From Chloroflexota bacterium (GTDB lineage Archaea > Iainarchaeota > Iainarchaeia > Iainarchaeales > GCA-2688035), in contig JAFCCG010000003.1 in NCBI GenBank assembly GCA_017610335.1, positions 1 through 36,740 of the forward strand: a stretch of DNA of 36,740 nucleotides. The letters run 5' to 3'. The position numbers and the translations under genes are program-made. Within the stretch, counting starts at the first letter, position 1. Every line of letters starts with the position of its first letter. The notes under the pieces were generated by a model, which did not search any database, was not told the origin of the DNA, and worked only from the letters and a program-made list of their open reading frames with translations. Shown one piece after another: positions 7,510 through 28,194 of this stretch.

Positions 7510-8841
7510 ATGAATGAAAATATAAACGAATTTCTGAAAAAAAACAAAGTTGAAGAAGGCAACATTGTTGAAATTGCTGAACAAAAAGGCAATCTAATGA
7601 AAGGAACAATAATTCCTTCAAAAGAAAACGTTCTTGCACTAAAACTTGAAAACGGCTACAATGTTGGAATTTCACTAAAAAAAATAAAATCGGTAAAAAA
7701 AATTGGCTCTGGAAAAACTGTTGGAAAGGCAAAAACTGTTGAAATAAAAAAGAACCCAAAACTTCCAACAATAAGTATTTTACACACAGGAGGCACAATT
7801 GCCTCAAGAGTTGATTATAGAACAGGCGGTGTTTATGCAGCATTTGGAGCAAACGATTTATTTGCAATGTTTCCAGAACTTGCCAAAATAGCAAATTTTA
7901 ATTCAAGACTTGTAACAAATATTATGAGCGAAGACATCATATTTAAAGATTATCAAACGATTGCAAAAGCAGTTACAGAAGAAATAAAAAAAGGCGTAAA
8001 AGGAATAATCATTGGACATGGAACAGACACTCTTGCAGTAACAGCAACTGCTCTTACATTCATGTTTGAAAATTTACCAATTCCTGTTCTGATTGTTGGA
8101 TCACAAAGAAGCAGTGACAGAGGCAGTTCGGATGCTGCAATGAATTTAACCTGTGCAGCAAACTTTATTGCAAAATCTAATTTTGCAGGAGTTGCAATCT
8201 GCATGCATCACCACGAATCTGATACAGAATGTGCAATCCTCCCAGCATGCAAAACAAGAAAACTTCACACAAGCAGACGGGATGCTTTCAAAGCTGTAAA
8301 CGATACACCAATTGCATTAATTGAATACAAAACAGCAAACATTAAATTTTTGAAAAAAAACTATGAAAAATCTGATAAAAGCAAAAAATTTTCATTAAAA
8401 GATAAGTTTGAAGAAAGAACCGGGTTATTAAAAACACATATAAACATGCAGATAGAAGCGTTTGAATTTTTCAAAAAAAACAAATACAAAGGATTTGTAT
8501 TGGAAGCAACAGGAATTGGTCAGGCTCCCACAAACACAAAAAAACATGAAAAAAATTATGAAACATTAAAAAAATTCATAAAAAGCGGAGGAATTATTGC
8601 ATTAACCTCGCAATGCATCTTTGGAAGAGTTCATCCTACAATTTACACAAACTGCAGAAGACTTGCGAATATAGGAATAATTTTCTGCGAAGACATGCTT
8701 ACAGAAACCGCCTTTATCAAGCTTGCATGGCTGCTTGGAAATTACTCAGCAGAAGAAACAAAAAAACTCATGGCAAAAAACCTGCGCGGGGAAATAAGCA
8801 AAAGGACAGAAATAACCGAAATTGAAACAGGCGAAAACTAG
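7510..8841 (+). CDS. gatD: Glu-tRNA(Gln) amidotransferase subunit D (asparaginase-like)
   Basis: 443 aa; N-terminal beta domain then SILHTGGTIASRVDYRTGG and IIIGHGTDTLAVTA. Confidence 0.96.
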   Translation: MNENINEFLKKNKVEEGNIVEIAEQKGNLMKGTIIPSKENVLALKLENGYNVGISLKKIKSVKKIGSGKTVGKAKTVEIKKNPKLPTISILHTGGTIASRVDYRTGGVYAAFGANDLFAMFPELAKIANFNSRLVTNIMSEDIIFKDYQTIAKAVTEEIKKGVKGIIIGHGTDTLAVTATALTFMFENLPIPVLIVGSQRSSDRGSSDAAMNLTCAANFIAKSNFAGVAICMHHHESDTECAILPACKTRKLHTSRRDAFKAVNDTPIALIEYKTANIKFLKKNYEKSDKSKKFSLKDKFEERTGLLKTHINMQIEAFEFFKKNKYKGFVLEATGIGQAPTNTKKHEKNYETLKKFIKSGGIIALTSQCIFGRVHPTIYTNCRRLANIGIIFCEDMLTETAFIKLAWLLGNYSAEETKKLMAKNLRGEISKRTEITEIETGEN

Positions 8842-9545
8842 CTTGCAATGGTCACAGTAGCCTTTCCAGCCCTTTTGCTTTTGTTAACAGCACGATTTGC
8901 AGCGAGATTCAGGGTTATAACCTTATTTTTCAAAGAAGGAAGGTTTGCAATCTTTGAAGAGCCTGTAACACCTGCTGAAAAACTTACACCATTATTTTGA
9001 AGCACTGCAAGAGCTGCTTTTAAATCCCCGGAAAGTGTTCTGACCCCCTTTGGAATAAGAATTTTCAGCTCATCTCCGCCAAACCTTGCAGCAAAGCCAT
9101 CATTCTTCTTTGCGACTTTGGATATTTCTTTAACAAACATTGACAATAGCTTGTCTGCTGCAGCATAGCCTTTTTTTGTATTTAAATGTTTTAGATTATC
9201 AAAATCCACAATTGCAAAAGAAAATGGCTTTTTTGCTTTTGGAGAACGCAGGAAATGAAAAAATCTTTCATTGAAAGCAGAATCAGACTCTATGTTGAAC
9301 TTTGCATCAAGAAGCAGAAGCCTGTTTAACCGCCTCTTTGCTATAGCAGATTGCATTGCTTTACCAATAAGAACTCTTCCAGAACCCTTTCCTTTATAAA
9401 ATTGCTCTGAAGCCTTATGAAGAGCTTCTTCCGTGGCAATCATTTCCCTCCAGGCACCCCGGGGATTTCTTTTAACAGCCCTTCTTTTTGAAAATACCAT
9501 AAAAGAATTATACTGTAAATAATAATTAAATGTTTGCTTTCTCAA
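8838..9545 (-). CDS. GGDEF-domain protein (putative diguanylate cyclase or related nucleotide cyclase)
   Basis: 235 aa; FAIVDFDNLKHLNTKKGYAAADKLL and FAARFGGDELKILIPKG. Confidence 0.85.
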   Translation of the reverse strand: MRKQTFNYYLQYNSFMVFSKRRAVKRNPRGAWREMIATEEALHKASEQFYKGKGSGRVLIGKAMQSAIAKRRLNRLLLLDAKFNIESDSAFNERFFHFLRSPKAKKPFSFAIVDFDNLKHLNTKKGYAAADKLLSMFVKEISKVAKKNDGFAARFGGDELKILIPKGVRTLSGDLKAALAVLQNNGVSFSAGVTGSSKIANLPSLKNKVITLNLAANRAVNKSKRAGKATVTIAS

Positions 9546-12595: not shown

Positions 12596-14491
12596 TTGAA
12601 TACTTTGATTAAAATGGAGGAAAACTGGGAAAAGCTTGGATTAAAAGCAGGATTGGAATGCCACCAACAACTAGACACAGGAAAATTGTTCTGCAGGTGC
12701 CCTTCGGTGCTTAGAGAAGACAAACCTGATATTGAAGTAAAACGATTTCTTAGACCGGTTGCATCAGAATTAGGAGAATTTGACAAAGCCGCTTTGGAAG
12801 CATTTAGCAAAAACCGTTCATATAAATATGAAGTATACAATGATAGCAACTGCGAAATCGAATTAGATGATGAGCCACCGCAACCAGTTGACAAAGAAGC
12901 CCTTAAAATAACTCTTAAATCAGCCTTGATGACAAAAAGCAATATTTTGGACGAATCGTTTGTAATGCGAAAACTTGTAATTGACGGTTCGAATACTTCT
13001 GGATTTCAGAGAACAATGCTTGTTGCCCTTGGCGGAGAAATTGAATTAAGCAACAAAAAAGTAGGCATTCTAACCATTGCATTGGAAGAGGATGCCGCAA
13101 GGCCCATGGAAAAAAAGGAGCTTGAAACAGTTTACAGACTTGATAGATTAGGAATCCCTTTGATAGAGCTTGCAACCGCTCCTGATTTGAAAACTCCTGA
13201 GGAGGTTAAAGAATGTGCAAAAAAAATTGGAGAAATGTTTAGAAGAACATGCAAAGCAAAACGTGGTCTTGGAACAATAAGACAGGATGTAAATGTTTCA
13301 ATTAAAGAAGGGGCAAGGGTTGAAATTAAAGGAGTGCAAGAGCTTAATCTGATAGATGAATATGTGCGAAGAGAAGTGCAAAGGCAGAAGGCATTAATTG
13401 CAATAAGAGAAGAAATGAAAAAAAGAAAAATTGGAAAAGAAGATTTTGGAAATATTGAAATTGCCAACCTTTCTCAAATTTTTGCAGAAAGCGAATGCAA
13501 GTTTTTAAAAGGGAAACAGGTTTTTGGCGCAAAGCTCCATAAAATGCAGGACCTTTTAGGAAAAGAAATTCAATCCGAAAGAAGATTTGGCACAGAGCTT
13601 GCCGGATATGTAAAATCAAAAGCAGGGCTTAAAGGAATTCTGCATTCGGATGAATTGCCTGCTTACGGTGTAAGTGAAAGGGAAGTTGAACAAACCAGGC
13701 ACAAGTGCAACTGCATAATGGACGATGCTTTTGTCATAGTGCAGGCGGAAGAAAAAAAGGTCGAAAAAGCAATTGATGCAGTGCTTGAAAGATGCAAAGA
13801 AGCCTTGAAAGGTGTGCCTGAAGAAACAAGAAATGCCTTGGAAGATGGAAATACAGAATACAGCAGGCCATTGCCTGGCGCAGCAAGAATGTACCCTGAA
13901 ACAGACCTTGCGCCGATAATTGTTAACGAAAAAGAGCTTGCAGGCATTGCAAAGCAATTGCCTTTAACAGTAAAGGCAAGGGAAAAACTTTACTTGGAAA
14001 AAGGGCTTTCAGGAAAGCTTGTTGAAGGAATGAAACTAAGTAATTTCGCCTGCTTTTTTGAAAAGCTTTTGAAAAAAGGAATTAATGCAACAACCGCTGC
14101 TTCTCTGCTGCTTGATGGCATTACGCAATTGAGAAGGGAAGGCATGAAAAATATTGGAAATGAAATGGTTGAAACAGTACTTGTGTTTGAAAAGGAAAAA
14201 AAGATTTCAAAAGACATTTTGCTTGATTTCCTAAGAGAATGGAGCAAAAGCCCTGAATCAAAAGCCGAGAAAATTTTGAAGACAATGAATGTTGAAAGAG
14301 CTGATGAAAGCCAGCTGCAAAAAGTCATTGCAAGCGTAATTGAGAAAAACAAAGCCATTGTGGAAACAAGAGGCGAAAGGGCAATCGGAGCATTGATGGG
14401 AGAGACCATGAAAGAGCTGAAGGGAAAAGCCGACGGTTCCACAATAAGCAGGATATTAAAAGAAGAACTTGCAAAAAAGACAAAAAAATAA
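12596..14491 (+). CDS. gatE: Glu-tRNA(Gln) amidotransferase subunit E (start possibly ATG at 12614)
   Basis: 631 aa; LGLKAGLECHQQLDTGKLFCRCPS, ALEEDAARPM, LIELATAPDLKTPEE, GTIRQDVNVSI, YPETDLAPI. Confidence 0.97.
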   Translation: MNTLIKMEENWEKLGLKAGLECHQQLDTGKLFCRCPSVLREDKPDIEVKRFLRPVASELGEFDKAALEAFSKNRSYKYEVYNDSNCEIELDDEPPQPVDKEALKITLKSALMTKSNILDESFVMRKLVIDGSNTSGFQRTMLVALGGEIELSNKKVGILTIALEEDAARPMEKKELETVYRLDRLGIPLIELATAPDLKTPEEVKECAKKIGEMFRRTCKAKRGLGTIRQDVNVSIKEGARVEIKGVQELNLIDEYVRREVQRQKALIAIREEMKKRKIGKEDFGNIEIANLSQIFAESECKFLKGKQVFGAKLHKMQDLLGKEIQSERRFGTELAGYVKSKAGLKGILHSDELPAYGVSEREVEQTRHKCNCIMDDAFVIVQAEEKKVEKAIDAVLERCKEALKGVPEETRNALEDGNTEYSRPLPGAARMYPETDLAPIIVNEKELAGIAKQLPLTVKAREKLYLEKGLSGKLVEGMKLSNFACFFEKLLKKGINATTAASLLLDGITQLRREGMKNIGNEMVETVLVFEKEKKISKDILLDFLREWSKSPESKAEKILKTMNVERADESQLQKVIASVIEKNKAIVETRGERAIGALMGETMKELKGKADGSTISRILKEELAKKTKK

Positions 14492-20089: not shown

Positions 20090-20479
20090 TTATTTGATTG
20101 ATATAAGCAATTTTCTGTCACGCGGCCCATCAAATTCTGCAAAAAAAATCCCTTCCCATGTCCCTAAAATAAGCCTTTCAGATTGTACCAAAATTGTTCT
20201 GCTGTTTCCCATGAGAGCCGCCTTTATATGCGAATCCGAGTTTCCTTCGGCATGCTTATAGCCTGCATTTTCAGGAACAAGTTTTTCCAAAGCATCAATA
20301 ATATCACGCTTTACATCAAAATCTGCATTTTCGTTTATTGTTATTGCAGCTGTTGTATGAGGACAGTAAATAACACAAATTCCTTCATTCACACCAGACT
20401 TTGCAACAGCTTCTTGCACCTGGTTTGTAACGTCAATCAGCTCGTTTCTTTTGCCTGATTTTACAGGAATTTCAATCAA
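20090..20479 (-). CDS. YjbQ/UPF0047 family protein
   Basis: 129 aa; VIYCPHTTAAITINENAD, ILVQSERLILGTWEGIFFAEFDGPR. Confidence 0.93.
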   Translation of the reverse strand: MIEIPVKSGKRNELIDVTNQVQEAVAKSGVNEGICVIYCPHTTAAITINENADFDVKRDIIDALEKLVPENAGYKHAEGNSDSHIKAALMGNSRTILVQSERLILGTWEGIFFAEFDGPRDRKLLISIK

Positions 20480-20480
20480 T

Positions 20481-22346
20481 TTATTCGCCCTTTGTTTTTT
20501 TCAAAATAATGTTTTGCACGTCCTTTGGATTTGCTTTTGCTCTTGTCAAACGCATTACCTGCCCTACAAGAAAGTTGAGGCTTTCCTGCTTTCCTCTTTT
20601 CAAATCAGCAACTGCGGCCTTGTTGTTGGCCATAACTTTTTCAACAGCCTTTTCAATTTCCCCTGTGCCCAAATCCATTGCAAGACCTTGGCTGTCAATA
20701 AACTTTGTTGGCTTTATGCCTTTTGTAAGATATGCAATTATTGCATCCTTTGCAACCTTTTCAGTTATTTTGCCAGAGGAACGCAGTGAAAGAAGGGAGG
20801 ATATCTCTTCGGAGTCAAGCTCGAGAGAATCAAGGTCAAGCTCGCTTCTGTTTACTACCGCCATCAATTCTCTTGTAAGGAAATTTGCTGCAATCTTTGC
20901 ATTAATATCTTTTGCTACATGTTCAAAAAGGACTCCCAGAGCAAAATTTCCTGCAAGAACATTTGAAGTATATTCATCCAAGCCAAATTCTTCAATAAAC
21001 CTTTTTGATTTTGCACCATGCAATTCAGGAAGGTTGCGCTTTATTTGTTCTATTTCACTTTTTGTCACCCTGAAAGCAGTTAAATCAGGTTCAAAAATGT
21101 AACCATAATCGGCTTCTGTTTCCTTGCTTCTTGTTGCCCTTGTGGTCCCCTTAGCTTCATCAAATGCCCTTGTTTCCATTACAATTTTCTTACCTCCAAG
21201 CAAAACATGCTTTTGCCTTGCAATTTCAAAAGCAAGTGCCTTTTCAACACCTTTTTTGCCTGAAACATTTTTCACTTCAACCCTATTGTTTCCATAAACA
21301 CTTGCATTGCAGTCTGCCTTTAGCACACCGGTTGTTGGAGAATAAACTTTGAGATATGAAAGAATTGTCGTAAGCTGGTCAAGAAAGTCACGTGCCTCTT
21401 CAGGTGTTTGCATGTCAGGATCTGTTACAATTTCAACCAATGGAATTCCTGAACGATTGTAGTCAACAAGACAAAAATTGCTTGAACCCATTCCTTCAGA
21501 ATGTACTAATGCTGCAGGATCTTCTTCTAAATGAACCCTGGTAATTCCGACTTTTTTGCCAGTGCTTAACATAATATGGCCCTTTTCCCCTATTGGAATT
21601 TCATATTGGGTTATTTGGAAATTTTTTGACATATCAGGGTAAAAATATGTTTTTCTGCTGAAAAAGAATTCCCGATTAATTTCACAATTCAAAGCAAGAG
21701 CAACCTTCATTGCATAATCCAAAGCAGTTGCATTTAACACAGGCTTGCTTCCAGGATGCCCAAGGCAAATTGGACAACATGCAGAATTTGGCTCTTCTGC
21801 CTGAGTTTTGCAACCACAGAACAGCTTGCTTTTTGTACTTAATTGAACATGACATTCAAGACCAATCATTGTTTCGCCTGAACAGATATCGGCTTTGCTG
21901 CAGTGGTCAAGAATCCTATGCAATTCATTTAAATCAATTATTATTCCGGCTGTCGCAATCCCTGCATTGAAAGAAACTTCCTTGTTTTCAAGCAAGGACC
22001 TGTCAATCACTTTCCTAATTTCAGGAATTAGGGGGGGAACAAGGCCTACTTCGCAACCAGTATATTGTTTAACTTCTGCAGGTTCAGCAAACCTGATTCT
22101 TTTTGCATTAACTACTTTTAAGAGCTTTGATTCGTCAACCCGCTTATCACCTGGCAAAATTGCGAGCAATGGATTTCCATCAACCATGTAAACAAGGGCT
22201 TTTGCAATCTGCTTTAGCTCAACGCCCCTTACCTTTGCGCTGTCAACAGGCTTTTTTACAGGCGCGTGTTCAACAAATTTAAATTGAATTTTTCTTTTTT
22301 CAAGAAAATCCTTCACCCAGGCCTTGCCTTCAATTATTTCACTCAT
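20481..22346 (-). CDS. gatB: Fusion of YbaK/INS-type aminoacyl-tRNA deacylase domain (residues ~10-152) and GatB
   Basis: 621 aa; N-terminus KQIAKALVYMVDGNPLLAILPGDKRVD...CEVGLVPPL; GatB starts at MIGLECHVQLSTKSKLFCGC (M160, 21869), then FFSRKTYFYPDMSKNFQITQYEIP, HLEEDPAALVH, GIPLVEIVTDPDM. Confidence 0.93.
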   Translation of the reverse strand: MSEIIEGKAWVKDFLEKRKIQFKFVEHAPVKKPVDSAKVRGVELKQIAKALVYMVDGNPLLAILPGDKRVDESKLLKVVNAKRIRFAEPAEVKQYTGCEVGLVPPLIPEIRKVIDRSLLENKEVSFNAGIATAGIIIDLNELHRILDHCSKADICSGETMIGLECHVQLSTKSKLFCGCKTQAEEPNSACCPICLGHPGSKPVLNATALDYAMKVALALNCEINREFFFSRKTYFYPDMSKNFQITQYEIPIGEKGHIMLSTGKKVGITRVHLEEDPAALVHSEGMGSSNFCLVDYNRSGIPLVEIVTDPDMQTPEEARDFLDQLTTILSYLKVYSPTTGVLKADCNASVYGNNRVEVKNVSGKKGVEKALAFEIARQKHVLLGGKKIVMETRAFDEAKGTTRATRSKETEADYGYIFEPDLTAFRVTKSEIEQIKRNLPELHGAKSKRFIEEFGLDEYTSNVLAGNFALGVLFEHVAKDINAKIAANFLTRELMAVVNRSELDLDSLELDSEEISSLLSLRSSGKITEKVAKDAIIAYLTKGIKPTKFIDSQGLAMDLGTGEIEKAVEKVMANNKAAVADLKRGKQESLNFLVGQVMRLTRAKANPKDVQNIILKKTKGE

Positions 22347-23084
22347 TTAAACATTCACCTGCATTAAGTCTTTGGCAACATAAATCTTGCCCTTGAATTT
22401 TTTAGCAGCAAGCGCTTTTGTATCTGCCTTTTCAGCTTCCGGCGAAAAATGATGTAATAGCAATTCCTTTGCATTGGCTCTTGCAGCAATACTGGCAACC
22501 TGCTCTGCATTCATATGATCTTCACCCTTTTTTTCACCAAAATTGCATTCAGCAACAAATAAATCGGCATTTTTTGCCAAGTCAACAAGGTTTTCATTCT
22601 GCTCAGTATCACCGGAAAAAACAACACTTTTACCGTTTGCCTCAAACCTAAAGCCCAAACTGCTTGACATGTGCTTCATTTTCTTGGTTATTAAAGAAAA
22701 GTTTGGAAATTTATTTGTTGAATGAGCTTCTAATTCAACTACATTCAATTTAAAGGGAAGGTTTTCAAACAAAGGATAAAGTCTAAACATATTTTGAACG
22801 AAATTTTTCAAACCTTTACCTGCAAAGAGATTAATCTGATTTTTTTCAGTAAGCCCTTTTCTTGCAAATAAAAAAGCAGCAAGGTCATTTATATGATCAG
22901 GGTGTTCACAATGGGTAAAGAAAAGATTGTTTACTTTTGAGTAATCAATGCCTGCGCTCTGCATATTCTTAAAACACCCAAAACCTAAATCAATAACAAT
23001 AGTTTGCTTGAGCAATTCAAGTACAAAACCTGTTGTTACCCTGTTTGAATTAGCTGAGCCACTTCCAAGAACTGTTAATTTCAT
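22347..23084 (-). CDS. RNase Z-like metallo-beta-lactamase fold hydrolase
   Basis: 245 aa; LTVLGSGSANSNR, FFTHCEHPDHINDL, VVFSGDTEQNENL, LLLHHFSPE. Confidence 0.85.
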   Translation of the reverse strand: MKLTVLGSGSANSNRVTTGFVLELLKQTIVIDLGFGCFKNMQSAGIDYSKVNNLFFTHCEHPDHINDLAAFLFARKGLTEKNQINLFAGKGLKNFVQNMFRLYPLFENLPFKLNVVELEAHSTNKFPNFSLITKKMKHMSSSLGFRFEANGKSVVFSGDTEQNENLVDLAKNADLFVAECNFGEKKGEDHMNAEQVASIAARANAKELLLHHFSPEAEKADTKALAAKKFKGKIYVAKDLMQVNV

Positions 23085-23869
23085 TTGTTCAGCTCCTTTA
23101 TGATTTGCGAATGTATTTTGCCGTTGCTTGCGACAATTGTTTGCTTGTGTGAAAAAAGGTCAAGTTGCTTCCCTTTATCATTTGTTATCTTTCCGCCTGC
23201 TTCTTTGAGAATTACGCTTCCTGCCGCAAAATCCCATGGAAAAGGGCCATATTCTATCCAAGCATCAAATCTTCCAGCAGAAATAAAGGCAAGCCTCAGG
23301 GAAGCTGCTCCAATTATTCTAAGTACCCCCAACTTGCCGGCGACAAGTTTTTTTAAAACGGCAAAATGCCTTTTTCTCATCCCGGCCCTTATTGAAACAG
23401 GCACGTCAAAAACCGCTTCCTCCATTTTACCGACTGTTGAAACATGAATTCTTTTTCCATTTAAAAAAGCTCCTTTGCCTTTTTCTGCGTAAAAAATATC
23501 GTTGATGCTTGGATCAAAAATCACTCCAAGAACCGCTTTTTTTCTTTTAACCAAACCTATTGACACCGCAAAGGACTTTATTCCACGGGAAAAGTTTTTT
23601 GTTCCATCCAAAGGGTCAACAACCCAAATGGCAGTGTCTGAAACTTTTGGATGCTTTTTATCTTCTTCTGCCAAAAACAATGCGTTTGGAAAGTTTTTTT
23701 TAATAACGCTTTTAATCTTCTTTTGGGCCAGGATATCAGCCTCTGTTACAACTCCAAGCCTTGCACTTTTGATTCGCACATACTGCAAATTGCCATAATG
23801 CTTCATTATAATTTTCCCGGCAGCCTTTGCGGCGATAATTGCAACAAGCAATTCCTTACTTTTCTTCAT
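23081..23869 (-). CDS. Inositol monophosphatase family protein (copy 1)
   Basis: 262 aa; LAEED, WVVDPLDGTKNFSRG, PWDFAAGSVILKEAGGKIT. Confidence 0.93.
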   Translation of the reverse strand: MKKSKELLVAIIAAKAAGKIIMKHYGNLQYVRIKSARLGVVTEADILAQKKIKSVIKKNFPNALFLAEEDKKHPKVSDTAIWVVDPLDGTKNFSRGIKSFAVSIGLVKRKKAVLGVIFDPSINDIFYAEKGKGAFLNGKRIHVSTVGKMEEAVFDVPVSIRAGMRKRHFAVLKKLVAGKLGVLRIIGAASLRLAFISAGRFDAWIEYGPFPWDFAAGSVILKEAGGKITNDKGKQLDLFSHKQTIVASNGKIHSQIIKELNK

Positions 23870-24627
23870 TTGCCCAGCTCCTTCAGGATTTTTTCATGCA
23901 GCAGGCCGTTTGAGGCGACAATGTTTGAAATATATGGCGCAGGCTTTCCTTTAAAGCTTGTTAGCTTTCCGCCTGCTTCTGATATTATCAAACTTGCGGC
24001 AGCAACATCCCAGGGATAGCATTGCACGTGAGCGCAAAAATCGGTTCTCCCTGTTGCGACCATTGCATAGTCGACTACTCCTCCAAGGCTACGCATGCTA
24101 AGCATTTTGGCAAAAATTTTTCCAAAAAGTTTGGCATATTCTTCAAGTGATTTGTAACAGGAATCAAATTCAAAACTTCCGTTTGTTCCCTCAAGACCAG
24201 CATTCTTTGAAACAAAAATCTTTTTGCCGTTCAAAAAAGCACCCTTGCCTTTTTCAGCCGAAAGAAGCTCTCCAAAGACAGGCAGAAATATCACTCCGGC
24301 AATAATCTGCCCTTCTTTTTCCAAAGCAATAGATATTCCAAAGTTTGGAAGCCCCCTCATATAGCTGTGTGTGCCATCAACAGGGTCTATTATCCACTTG
24401 CTTTGGCTTGAATTTTTGCTTTTTCCGCTTTCCTCTGACAAAAAGCTGTGGGAAGGAAAATTTTCCCTTATATGATTTATTATAATTTTTTCGCTTTCCA
24501 AATCAACATCTGTGACAAAATCCTTTGGCCCTTTTTCCTTAAGCTCATGTTTGGAGAACAATTTTTCCAATTGCAGCCTGCCTGCTTTTTTTGCAGCTTC
24601 TATTGCAACATCCAGCTCTTTGCTCAT
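23866..24627 (-). CDS. Inositol monophosphatase family protein (copy 2)
   Basis: 253 aa; LSEESG, WIIDPVDGTHSYMRG, PWDVAAASLIISEAGGKLT. Confidence 0.93.
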   Translation of the reverse strand: MSKELDVAIEAAKKAGRLQLEKLFSKHELKEKGPKDFVTDVDLESEKIIINHIRENFPSHSFLSEESGKSKNSSQSKWIIDPVDGTHSYMRGLPNFGISIALEKEGQIIAGVIFLPVFGELLSAEKGKGAFLNGKKIFVSKNAGLEGTNGSFEFDSCYKSLEEYAKLFGKIFAKMLSMRSLGGVVDYAMVATGRTDFCAHVQCYPWDVAAASLIISEAGGKLTSFKGKPAPYISNIVASNGLLHEKILKELGK

Positions 24628-26057
24628 TTCAGTTCCTCCACTGCCTTTGCTGCCTGCACCATTTTATTTTCCTGCAAATGGTCTGCTGTAATCATCAATC
24701 CAACAGGCATTCCCTTGTGTTCCCCTACCTTAACAGATGCATGCGGCAACCCTGCCAAATTTGCAGGAACAGTACACAAGTCCATTGCATATTGCTCCAG
24801 TGGTGAAAGTTTTTTTATTTCTCCAAAGGTTGGGGCAATTATTGGCATTGTTGGATTTACAAGTACATCAACAGTTTCAAACGCTTGTCTGAATTCTTTT
24901 ATCAGCTTTGTCCTTACCTTCATTGCCTTTAGATAATAAGCATCTCTAAAACCAGACATTCTTGCAAAGGTTCCAAGCAAAATACGCCTTTTTGCTTCAA
25001 TTCCAAAACCCTGTGAACGGACTTTTGAAAAATATTCGTTAAAATCTCCTTCTAATTTATCATGCAAACCATAACGCATTCCACAAAAACGTGCAAGATT
25101 TGTGCTTGCCTCTGTTGTTGAAGCAAGATAGTAAGCAGCAATTCCATATTTTGCATTTAGTGGCAGGGAAATTTCTTCCACTGTTGCACCCTCTTCTTCA
25201 AGCTTGTTAATTGCGTTCATGCATTCTTTTTGCACTTTTTCTTCACAACCTTTAAAAAATTCTTTTACAACACCTATTCTGAAATCGTTTAAATGTTTTA
25301 CATTCCCCAAATTCTGTGCTTCAGCCTTTAAGGAGGTACTGTCGTTCATATCATAACCAGAAATTACTTCAAGAAGCAATGCTGCGTCAGAAATTGTTTT
25401 TCCAATAGTCCCAATTTTATCAAGAGAATTTGCATAATCAATTAATCCAAATCTACTTACCAGGCCATAAGTTGGAGTTAGTCCTGCTACACCACAAAAT
25501 GATGCAGGTGCAGCAATGCTTCCACCAGTACTTTGGCCAATGCTTGCATGCGTCAGACTTGTTAGTGAAGTAAAACCAGCACTTCCGCCAGAACTTCCAC
25601 CACAACATCTTTTTGGATTAAGTGGATTTAATGGTTTTTCAAAGTCTACTCCGACATTGTTTGAAAATGTTCCAAAACCGAATTCGTCCTGTGCTGTTTT
25701 ACCAATTATTATCGCCCCTTCCTTTTTTGCTTTTGCAATAACTGTTGCGTCAAATAAAGGAAGGTAACCAGAAAGAATTTTGCTTCCCGCTCTTGATTCA
25801 AAATCTTTTACACAAATGCAGTCTTTTACACTTATTGGAACACCTAATAGTTTTCCCTTGTGCTGGCCTGTTTTTATTCCTGCATCAATTTCTTTTGCCT
25901 GCAGTAGTGCTGATTTTTTTGCAATTAAATTAAAGTGATGAAATTGTGAATTGCTTTTTTCAGCTTCTTCAATAATTTTTTCAGTATGTTCCACTATGGA
26001 AATGCTTCCCCTTTTGACTTCTTTGACAAATTCAGTAATACTTTGGGCTTTTTTCAT
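24624..26057 (-). CDS. gatA: Asp-tRNA(Asn)/Glu-tRNA(Gln) amidotransferase subunit A
   Basis: 477 aa; GVPISVKDCICV, amidase signature CCGGSSGGSAGF...SIGQSTGGSIAAPASFCGVAGLTPTYGLVSR. Confidence 0.97.
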   Translation of the reverse strand: MKKAQSITEFVKEVKRGSISIVEHTEKIIEEAEKSNSQFHHFNLIAKKSALLQAKEIDAGIKTGQHKGKLLGVPISVKDCICVKDFESRAGSKILSGYLPLFDATVIAKAKKEGAIIIGKTAQDEFGFGTFSNNVGVDFEKPLNPLNPKRCCGGSSGGSAGFTSLTSLTHASIGQSTGGSIAAPASFCGVAGLTPTYGLVSRFGLIDYANSLDKIGTIGKTISDAALLLEVISGYDMNDSTSLKAEAQNLGNVKHLNDFRIGVVKEFFKGCEEKVQKECMNAINKLEEEGATVEEISLPLNAKYGIAAYYLASTTEASTNLARFCGMRYGLHDKLEGDFNEYFSKVRSQGFGIEAKRRILLGTFARMSGFRDAYYLKAMKVRTKLIKEFRQAFETVDVLVNPTMPIIAPTFGEIKKLSPLEQYAMDLCTVPANLAGLPHASVKVGEHKGMPVGLMITADHLQENKMVQAAKAVEELK

Positions 26058-26063
26058 ACAATA

Positions 26064-26357
26064 TCAGGTCACCTTTGGGCCCATAAAATACCCGTCTTTC
26101 TTGTTTTTTGTGTTTTTTAATGCCTCTTCCTGGCTTAAGCACTTTTCAACAAGGTCTTTTCTGGCTACGTTCTCTAAGGATAAGGGTTGAAAGCTTGGCT
26201 TTTCATCTTTGACGTCAATTTCGTCAAGTTTGCCAAATGCTTTGAGAATTTCCTGCAATTGAGGAAGGAATTCGTCAACTTCTTTGCCTGTAAGATTCAG
26301 ACGCGCATTTGTTGAAACCTTTAAAAGAAGCTTTTTGTCAACCTTTGGTTTTGCCAT
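26064..26357 (-). CDS. gatC: Amidotransferase subunit C
   Basis: 97 aa directly upstream of gatA; LLLKVSTNARLNLTGKEVDEFLPQLQEILKAFGKLDEIDV. Confidence 0.88.
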   Translation of the reverse strand: MAKPKVDKKLLLKVSTNARLNLTGKEVDEFLPQLQEILKAFGKLDEIDVKDEKPSFQPLSLENVARKDLVEKCLSQEEALKNTKNKKDGYFMGPKVT

Positions 26358-26400: not shown

Positions 26401-28194
26401 TTATTGCTTTTTTTGCCCTAGCAATGGCTTTTCAATATCAAGCTTTAGGCCAAGCTCTTTCAGCTGTTTTTCTGTTACTTCGCTTGGAGCTCCATCCATT
26501 AGCGAAACAGTTGCCTTGTTTTTTGGAAAAGCGATTACTTCACGAATACTGTCTTCTCCGGCCATTAAGGCAATAACCCTGTCAAGACCCAAAGCAATTC
26601 CACCATGCGGAGGCGCACCGTATTTAAAGGCACTTAGCAAAAAACCAAATTTGCTTTCGGCTTCCTGTTTGCTGATTCCCAAAGCATTAAACATCTTTTC
26701 CTGAACTTTTTCGTTGTGAATTCTGATGCTTCCACCGCCAACCTCCACACCGTTTAAAACCATATCATAAGCTTTTGCCTTTGCTTTTTCCGGTGCACTG
26801 TCAAGAAGTTTTAGGTCTTCATCTTTTGGAGAAGTGAACGGGTGATGCATTGCAACATATCTTTGCTCGTCATCATTCCAATCCAAAAGAGGAAAATCAT
26901 AAACCCAAAGGAAGTTCCATTTCTTTCCGTCGATTAAGTTAAGCTTTTGTCCAACTGCAAGGCGAACATAGCCCAAAGAATTACAGGCAATTTCCCATGA
27001 ATCTGCAATAAGCAAAATTAAATCCCCTTTCTTTGCCTTTGTTTTGGAAAGCAGTGCCTTTACGGTTTTTTCAGGCAGAAATTTTAAAATCTGACTTTCA
27101 ATTCCGGTGTCCTTAACCCAAACACTCATCAATCCTTTTGCCTTGTAAAGTTTTGCAATTTCAGTAAGCTTGTCAACATCTTTTTTTGACAATTTTTTAC
27201 AACCCTTTTCAACAACCAGGGCTTTTATTGCTCCTTTGACTTCAATTACCGAATTAAAAATTCCAAAATCTGTTCCCTTCAATTCATTTGTTACATCAGC
27301 AAGCTCCAATTCAAAACGGGTATCAGGCTTGTCTGAACCAAACTGATTCATTGCCTCTTCAAAAGACATTCGCGGAAAAGGAATTTTTACATTCAAGCCA
27401 AGCGACTGCTTGAAAACAAATGCCATACACCTTTCCATTAATTTCAAAACATCATTCTGTTCAACAAACGACATTTCCACATCAATTTGAGTAAATTCAA
27501 GCTGCCTGTCAGCCCTCAAATCCTCGTCCCTAAAGCATTTTACAATTTGGAAATATTTGTCAAAACCTGAAACCATTAGAATTTGCTTAAAGAGTTGCGG
27601 ACTCTGGGGCAAAGCAAAAAACTTTCCTGGATGAACACGGCTTGGAACAAGAAAATCTCTGGCACCCTCAGGCGTGCTCTTGGCAAGAATTGGCGTCTCA
27701 ATTTCCAAAAATCCTTCTTTGTCAAAAAAGTCACGAAATGCTTTTGCAACCTTGTGTCTTAAAATAATATTTTTCTGCAACTCAGGTCGCCTTAAATCCA
27801 AAAACCTGTATTTTAGCCTTTGGTCTTCTCCCGCCAAAAGATGCTTGTCGAGCTCTATTGGCAAAGGGGTTTCCGAAGGATTCAAAATTTCAAGCGTGGA
27901 AACATGCACTTCAATTTTGCCAGTGGTAATTTCCTTGTTTTCCGTTCCCTTTGGCCTTTTGCAAACCTTACCCTCTATCAGGACAACGAATTCTTTTCCA
28001 AGCTTTTCCGCCAGCTTGTGTGCATCCTTTGAGTCCTTTGGATTGAACACAACTTGAGTAACACCATACCTGTCGCGCAGGTCAATAAATATCAACTTGC
28101 CATGGTCTCTTCTTTTTGAAACCCAGCCCTGCAAAATTACCTTTTTGCCAATGGCTTTTTCAGAAAGCTGTCCACAAGTATTAGTTCTCTTCAT
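26401..28194 (-). CDS. aspS: Aspartyl-tRNA synthetase, bacterial type with GAD-like insertion
   Basis: 597 aa; GWVSKRRDHGKLIFIDLRDRYGVTQVV, LDLRRPELQKNIILRHK, CFRDEDLRADRQLEFTQIDVEMSF, GGIALGLDRVIALM. Confidence 0.95.
   Translation of the reverse strand: MKRTNTCGQLSEKAIGKKVILQGWVSKRRDHGKLIFIDLRDRYGVTQVVFNPKDSKDAHKLAEKLGKEFVVLIEGKVCKRPKGTENKEITTGKIEVHVSTLEILNPSETPLPIELDKHLLAGEDQRLKYRFLDLRRPELQKNIILRHKVAKAFRDFFDKEGFLEIETPILAKSTPEGARDFLVPSRVHPGKFFALPQSPQLFKQILMVSGFDKYFQIVKCFRDEDLRADRQLEFTQIDVEMSFVEQNDVLKLMERCMAFVFKQSLGLNVKIPFPRMSFEEAMNQFGSDKPDTRFELELADVTNELKGTDFGIFNSVIEVKGAIKALVVEKGCKKLSKKDVDKLTEIAKLYKAKGLMSVWVKDTGIESQILKFLPEKTVKALLSKTKAKKGDLILLIADSWEIACNSLGYVRLAVGQKLNLIDGKKWNFLWVYDFPLLDWNDDEQRYVAMHHPFTSPKDEDLKLLDSAPEKAKAKAYDMVLNGVEVGGGSIRIHNEKVQEKMFNALGISKQEAESKFGFLLSAFKYGAPPHGGIALGLDRVIALMAGEDSIREVIAFPKNKATVSLMDGAPSEVTEKQLKELGLKLDIEKPLLGQKKQ

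Follow-up and report, generated by a model that had tools for sequence, protein, structure and literature searches.

An INS-superfamily editing domain fused to GatB in a Diapherotrites archaeon: a probable tethered deacylase in the asparagine-tRNA pathway

The window analyzed here is a stretch of 36,740 nucleotides from the genome of an archaeon that, by the labels of related genomes, belongs to the Diapherotrites (DPANN). The genome (G000) amounts to 1.29 Mb in 95 contigs and is 87% complete. A minus-strand cluster in the window runs through aspS, gatC, gatA, two inositol-monophosphatase (IMPase)-like genes, a metallo-β-lactamase (MBL)-fold gene, a gatB gene extended at its start by an INS-superfamily domain (INS-gatB), and yjbQ (Table 1). 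The adjacent IMPase-like genes are paralogues, and their order with the MBL-fold gene is kept in relatives.

Table 1. Features of the INS-gatB locus and of the amidotransferase genes in the window.
Feature	Coordinates	Strand	Basis or remark
INS-GatB fusion gene	20481..22346	-	621 aa, open frame from ATG
INS-superfamily (tRNA_edit) domain, residues 1-155	21882..22346	-	PF04073, E = 1.2e-26; structure model, Foldseek
K49 codon, predicted catalytic Lys of the INS family	22200..22202	-	alignment
GLVPP = GxxxP loop, residues 101-105	22032..22046	-	alignment; G101 and P105 invariant
INS/GatB junction, four residues (SGET), no stop codon	21870..21881	-	translation
GatB catalytic domain, residues 160-432	21051..21869	-	PF02934, E = 8e-92; NF004012, 538 bits
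GatB tail (YqeY) domain, residues 473-617	20496..20930	-	PF02637, E = 2.6e-33
UPF0047 (YjbQ) gene, immediately after gatB	20090..20479	-	
Two IMPase-like genes and MBL-fold gene, between gatA and INS-gatB	22347..24627	-	
gatA	24624..26057	-	Amidase, 4e-119; TIGR00132, 475.5 bits, slightly below the cut-off of 481
gatC	26064..26357	-	TIGR00135, over cut-off
AspRS, bacterial-type, with GAD domain, first of the cluster	26401..28194	-	presumably non-discriminating
gatD (Gln pathway)	7510..8841	+	
gatE (Gln pathway)	12596..14491	+	

Profile searches confirmed that the INS-gatB frame encodes a complete predicted INS-superfamily editing domain ahead of an intact GatB. In the whole protein, the Pfam tRNA_edit model matches residues 27–144 (E = 1.4e-25), and a search with residues 1–159 alone (E = 1.2e-26) covers positions 1–122 of the 123 in the model; the score is 93.7 bits, against a cut-off of 25.5 bits, bearing out a preliminary description of this DNA that had placed an editing domain N-terminal to GatB. 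GatB_N and GatB_Yqey follow over the residues given in Table 1, and residues 158–618 lie far above the NCBIfam cut-offs for GatB (NF004012, 538 versus 338 bits; TIGR00133, 469 versus 315 bits); the partner genes gatC and gatA stand in the same cluster. The canonical GatB methionine, at nt 21869, is residue 160, and K49 and the GLVPP motif align with the catalytic lysine and the GxxxP loop that are the hallmark of INS proteins (PMC11286415), all as described from the sequence. The hexamer aggcga upstream of nt 21869 is weaker than the aggtga that precedes nt 22346, which speaks, though no more than suggestively, against a plain GatB started at nt 21869. A second, short INS-like protein of ~141 aa occurs in the window's genus (L002, at G000:C32:31478-31714, and L015); it keeps a lysine, its GxxxP glycine is apparently replaced by Glu, and it is probably degenerate.

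The pathway served by this GatB can be narrowed down from the gene content. No AsnRS scored over the asnS cut-off in the window's genome, 87% complete as noted, in the other genomes with an INS-GatB, or in four genomes with an AspRS-INS fusion. Because no AsnRS was found, the AspRS of the cluster is probably non-discriminating; and since GatD and GatE, which serve Gln, are also encoded, GatCAB remains available for Asn. Most likely, then, GatCAB is here an Asp-tRNA(Asn) amidotransferase, and archaeal GatCAB is described as an Asp-AdT, specific for Asp (PMC9499178).

AlphaFold2 modelled the window protein with high confidence (mean pLDDT 87.9), as well as L029, a relative with the INS domain inserted inside GatB (mean pLDDT 89.4), and both folds, that of INS and that of GatB, appear in each model. 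Foldseek matched the predicted N-terminus to Thermus thermophilus ProX/ProXp-x (2cx5, TMt 0.88), APE2540 (1wdv, 0.86), and YbaK (1dbu, 0.84), and the remainder of the models to GatB, including that of the Asn-transamidosomes 3kfu and 4wj3. Alignments A2, A4, and A5 were left out of folding because INS-only fragments were misplaced in them; the insertion model was made from A3, in which the Nanohaloarchaeal and L095 INS fragments are misplaced and the Diapherotrites INS domains are placed correctly. The N-terminal domain thus belongs to the INS superfamily by a full-length PF04073 match, by its lysine and GxxxP loop, and by its predicted fold.

We surveyed 87 Diapherotrites genomes and inspected individually the PF04073 matches that lie in frames of GatB size or right at GatB. 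In eight of the 87 species, GatB is fused to the same INS subfamily, in two arrangements. The INS domain is N-terminal in the window, G058 (L020), G057 (L130), and G034 (L021); in G068 (L022), G069 (L034), G049 (L029), and G046 (L125), it is internal, lying past about residue 27 within the cysteine-rich hairpin of GatB, where the domain is flanked by the CxC and CxxC motifs and has a linker behind it. Most Diapherotrites GatBs are plain, and the presence of INS is patchy on the GatB tree. The nearest relative, G001 (L016), has a plain GatB, 88% identical, in an identical gene order without INS, and no other close INS homologue was found in that genome; by this comparison, the INS domain is optional in GatB. 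Synonymous sites were saturated in four of five INS pairs, leaving L022/L034 as the usable one (dN 0.28, dS 1.63). Two gatB loci are broken: at 2900–2950 of L021, the last part of INS is absent together with the ~27 residues that begin GatB, and the frame is shifted, as in a pseudogene or an assembly error, and in L033, a close relative (82% identity), gatB consists of two overlapping frames (7913–9296).

That an assembly or sequencing error, be it a frameshift or a chimeric contig, merged two genes is hardly credible. Frame breaks do occur in the same operon in the metagenome-assembled genomes (MAGs) of relatives (L021, L033, L017, and L019), but independent assemblies share the fusion, among them that of G057, which comprises two contigs and is 97% complete, and the internal form could arise neither by read-through nor by the loss of a single stop codon. 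With homologous fusions elsewhere and no tool result pointing to a sequencing frameshift, the fusion proposed from the sequence is confirmed. No viral relatives were found.

Further archaeal sets were surveyed (Nanohaloarchaeota, Woesearchaeota/Nanoarchaeota, Micrarchaeota, and Aenigmatarchaeota; the survey was confined to archaea), and additional links to the Asp/Asn pathway emerged. Nanohaloarchaeota encode a protein of 300–358 aa made of INS and a second GatB tail (INS-tail), which in several genomes directly follows gatB. In the Woesearchaeota/Nanoarchaeota set, 17 distinct bacterial-type AspRSs carry a C-terminal INS domain and are among the best matches to the profile of GatB-fused INS; in 11 of the loci read, gatC comes next, followed by gatA and gatB as far as the stretch extends. 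One AsnRS (L206) has INS at its N-terminus. In G557, G567, and G496, a free-standing INS gene adjoins or overlaps aspS, and in G496 it lies between the AspRS and AsnRS genes; no GatB was found at the family cut-off in G496 or G557. Among the 15 best-scoring Nanoarchaeota matches (L191–L205), ten either form part of an AspRS or AsnRS or lie directly beside its gene. The neighbors of five free-standing INS genes away from aspS showed no link to the pathway. The 156 Aenigmatarchaeota genomes yielded no INS frames of GatB or AspRS size. By gene fusion and gene order, therefore, this INS group is recurrently tied to the enzymes of Asn-tRNA(Asn) synthesis.

A tree of 123 INS domains gathers the GatB-fused domains of both positions in one clade (support 100/98), with the AsnRS-fused INS placed inside it on a long branch and with uncertainty; the INS-tail proteins are its sister (97/84). 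AspRS-linked INS domains are placed close to E. coli YeaK (ProXp-ST1) and to the INS of ThrRS fusions, a position of moderate support (85/92). GatB-fused INS and YeaK share one supergroup (99/96), within which YeaK is closer to the ThrRS- and AspRS-linked domains, whereas YbaK and the INS domain of ProRS sit on a separate long branch, apart from the GatB clade. In the alignment, the catalytic lysine is kept in 8/8 GatB fusions, 9/9 INS-tail proteins, and 16 of 17 AspRS fusions. The GxxxP Gly and Pro are present in every one of these proteins; K49, G101, and P105 are invariant in the eight GatB-fused domains. Arg40 is common to GatB-fused INS and YeaK and absent from YbaK, but several sites set the GatB clade apart from YeaK, for instance, a basic residue at position 112. 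The initial reading of an editing domain with intact signature residues on an intact GatB was therefore sound except for its YbaK label: the domain scores only 55.4 bits against the YbaK_EbsC cut-off of 153.25 (TIGR00011) and falls outside the YbaK/ProRS-INS branch. Nor is the fusion an isolated case, being part of a GatB-associated INS clade with internal and INS-tail forms and with AspRS- and AsnRS-fused relatives.

Several described systems resemble parts of this arrangement. ProXp-ST1 shares with GatB-fused INS the fold family, the catalytic lysine, GxxxP, Arg40, TGC and FNAG motifs, and the supergroup in the tree, but it is a free-standing bacterial Ser/Thr-tRNA deacylase with no GatB fusion, and GatB-fused INS forms its own clade. 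YbaK, a Cys-tRNA(Pro) deacylase, has the INS fold, lysine, and GxxxP loop in common with it; unlike GatB-fused INS, it is free-standing, lies on another branch, and lacks R40, and GatB-fused INS stays under the YbaK equivalog cut-off. The INS domain of bacterial ProRS and the N-terminal ProXp-ala of Plasmodium, Trypanosoma, and Leishmania ProRS offer a precedent for tethering INS to a tRNA-charging enzyme (PMC11286415, PMC3532385), although there the partner is ProRS rather than an amidotransferase or AspRS, and the INS branch is another. SepRS with an N-terminal ThrRS-type editing domain likewise joins editing to indirect tRNA charging (PMC8762117), but with an unrelated editing fold, in the Cys pathway, and on the synthetase rather than on the converting enzyme. 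The GatCAB Asn-transamidosomes (PDB 3kfu and 4wj3) have the same GatB catalytic and tail domains and an AspRS with a GAD domain, without an editing domain. In current reviews, INS-superfamily proteins figure as single-domain except for the INS of ProRS (PMC11295145; PMC11286415 for the ProRS fusions). Three INS clusters are of unknown activity. The open-access PMC papers searched contained no account of a fusion between INS or YbaK and GatB, AspRS, or AsnRS, in agreement with the earlier impression that the GatB fusion had not been described.

With a probability of about 0.6, judged from sequence comparison and predicted structures, we take the gene to encode an Asp-tRNA(Asn) amidotransferase GatB that carries, as a tethered and probably active aminoacyl-tRNA deacylase, a member of a distinct INS subfamily associated with GatB. 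The best explanation for the tether is that the deacylase proofreads aminoacyl-tRNA in the Asp/Asn pathway. AspRS would charge tRNA(Asn) with Asp, and GatCAB would then receive the tRNA, whose 3′ end would swing to the tethered INS site; there, a wrong aminoacyl ester would be hydrolyzed, and the wrong aminoacyl-tRNA would be withheld from the elongation factor. Candidate substrates are Asp-tRNA(Asn) left unamidated, and tRNA(Asn) or tRNA(Asp) bearing a misactivated amino acid, such as Ser or Thr, which would match the kinship with ProXp-ST1. Asp-tRNA(Asn) is the first candidate because it is the sole misacylated species common to errors of AspRS, AsnRS, and GatCAB; the kinship keeps Ser/Thr possible. 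A wider reading, which we hold only tentatively and at well under even odds, is that a dedicated INS family hydrolyzes Asp-tRNA(Asn) or other misacylated tRNA(Asn) within AspRS–GatCAB, as the transamidosome's own editing site, recruited repeatedly by fusion to GatB, AspRS, AsnRS, and a spare GatB tail.

Proofreading of this kind has points against it. The plain GatB of the nearest relative and of most Diapherotrites indicates that the INS function is dispensable, a deacylase of Asp-tRNA(Asn) would compete with the very synthesis on which it sits, and the active relatives ProXp-ST1/YeaK clear Ser/Thr, not Asp (PMC11295145). There is an appreciable, if less than even, chance that Asp-tRNA(Asn) is not the substrate and that INS removes a small or hydroxy amino acid wrongly attached to tRNA(Asp) or tRNA(Asn) by AspRS or AsnRS, with GatB or AspRS serving only as a delivery platform. 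The grouping of AspRS-linked INS with the YeaK and ThrRS INS domains and the R40 held in common with YeaK, not YbaK, fit such a role, as does the hydrolysis of Ser/Thr-tRNAs over a broad tRNA range by ProXp-ST1 and ST2 (PMC11295145). INS also abuts aspS where a full GatB was not found, and the cases in which AsnRS exists and no GatB passes the cut-off (G496 and G557) suggest an origin in AspRS errors, so the ancestral role of INS may concern AspRS rather than GatCAB. On the other hand, no reason is known to us why AspRS would require Ser/Thr editing, and the GatB clade departs from YeaK at the sites mentioned, including the basic residue 112.

Two other roles are less probable. A catalytically dead INS could act as an accessory module that binds the tRNA acceptor and helps GatB or AspRS to hold tRNA(Asn); its patchy presence, the fact that all its partners are tRNA enzymes, and the resemblance of the INS-tail form to a tRNA-binding add-on are compatible with this, but pure binding would not require the near-complete retention of the lysine and the complete retention of the GxxxP Gly and Pro, and we regard a dead domain as improbable. 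That the substrate is Cys- or Ala-tRNA(Pro), the type acted on by YbaK and ProXp-ala, and that the link to GatB is incidental, is more improbable still: the common fold speaks for it, and the score far under the YbaK cut-off, the branch distinct from YbaK and ProRS-INS, and the recurrent ties to AspRS, AsnRS, and GatB speak against it.

The exclusion of Asp-tRNA(Asn) from the ribosome is usually explained by channelling and by rejection by the elongation factor, to which a tethered deacylase would add a further, directly testable answer. That INS has been joined repeatedly, and in differing ways, to AspRS, AsnRS, and GatB points to editing in the course of asparagine-tRNA synthesis, and the data suggest a hitherto undescribed quality-control step in the making of Asn-tRNA in some small uncultured archaea.

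INS domains of other kinds also came to light in the survey. In the Micrarchaeota set, a free INS gene of L189 (G305; 1459–1971) overlaps the end of gatB, and its INS branch differs from that of the GatB-fused domains. Three ThrRSs of 804–944 aa (L213 and L214, Woesearchaeota set; L215, Micrarchaeota set) carry two editing domains in tandem: an archaeal tRNA-Thr_ED and, behind it, an INS domain close to YeaK. Two archaea of the Woesearchaeota set (L207 in G782 and L208 in G745) encode ProRS with INS at the N-terminus, as in protozoan ProRS. The 2.0-Mb G782 (L206, G782:C90) has AspRS-INS, AsnRS-INS, and ProRS-INS together and may be a mixed MAG.
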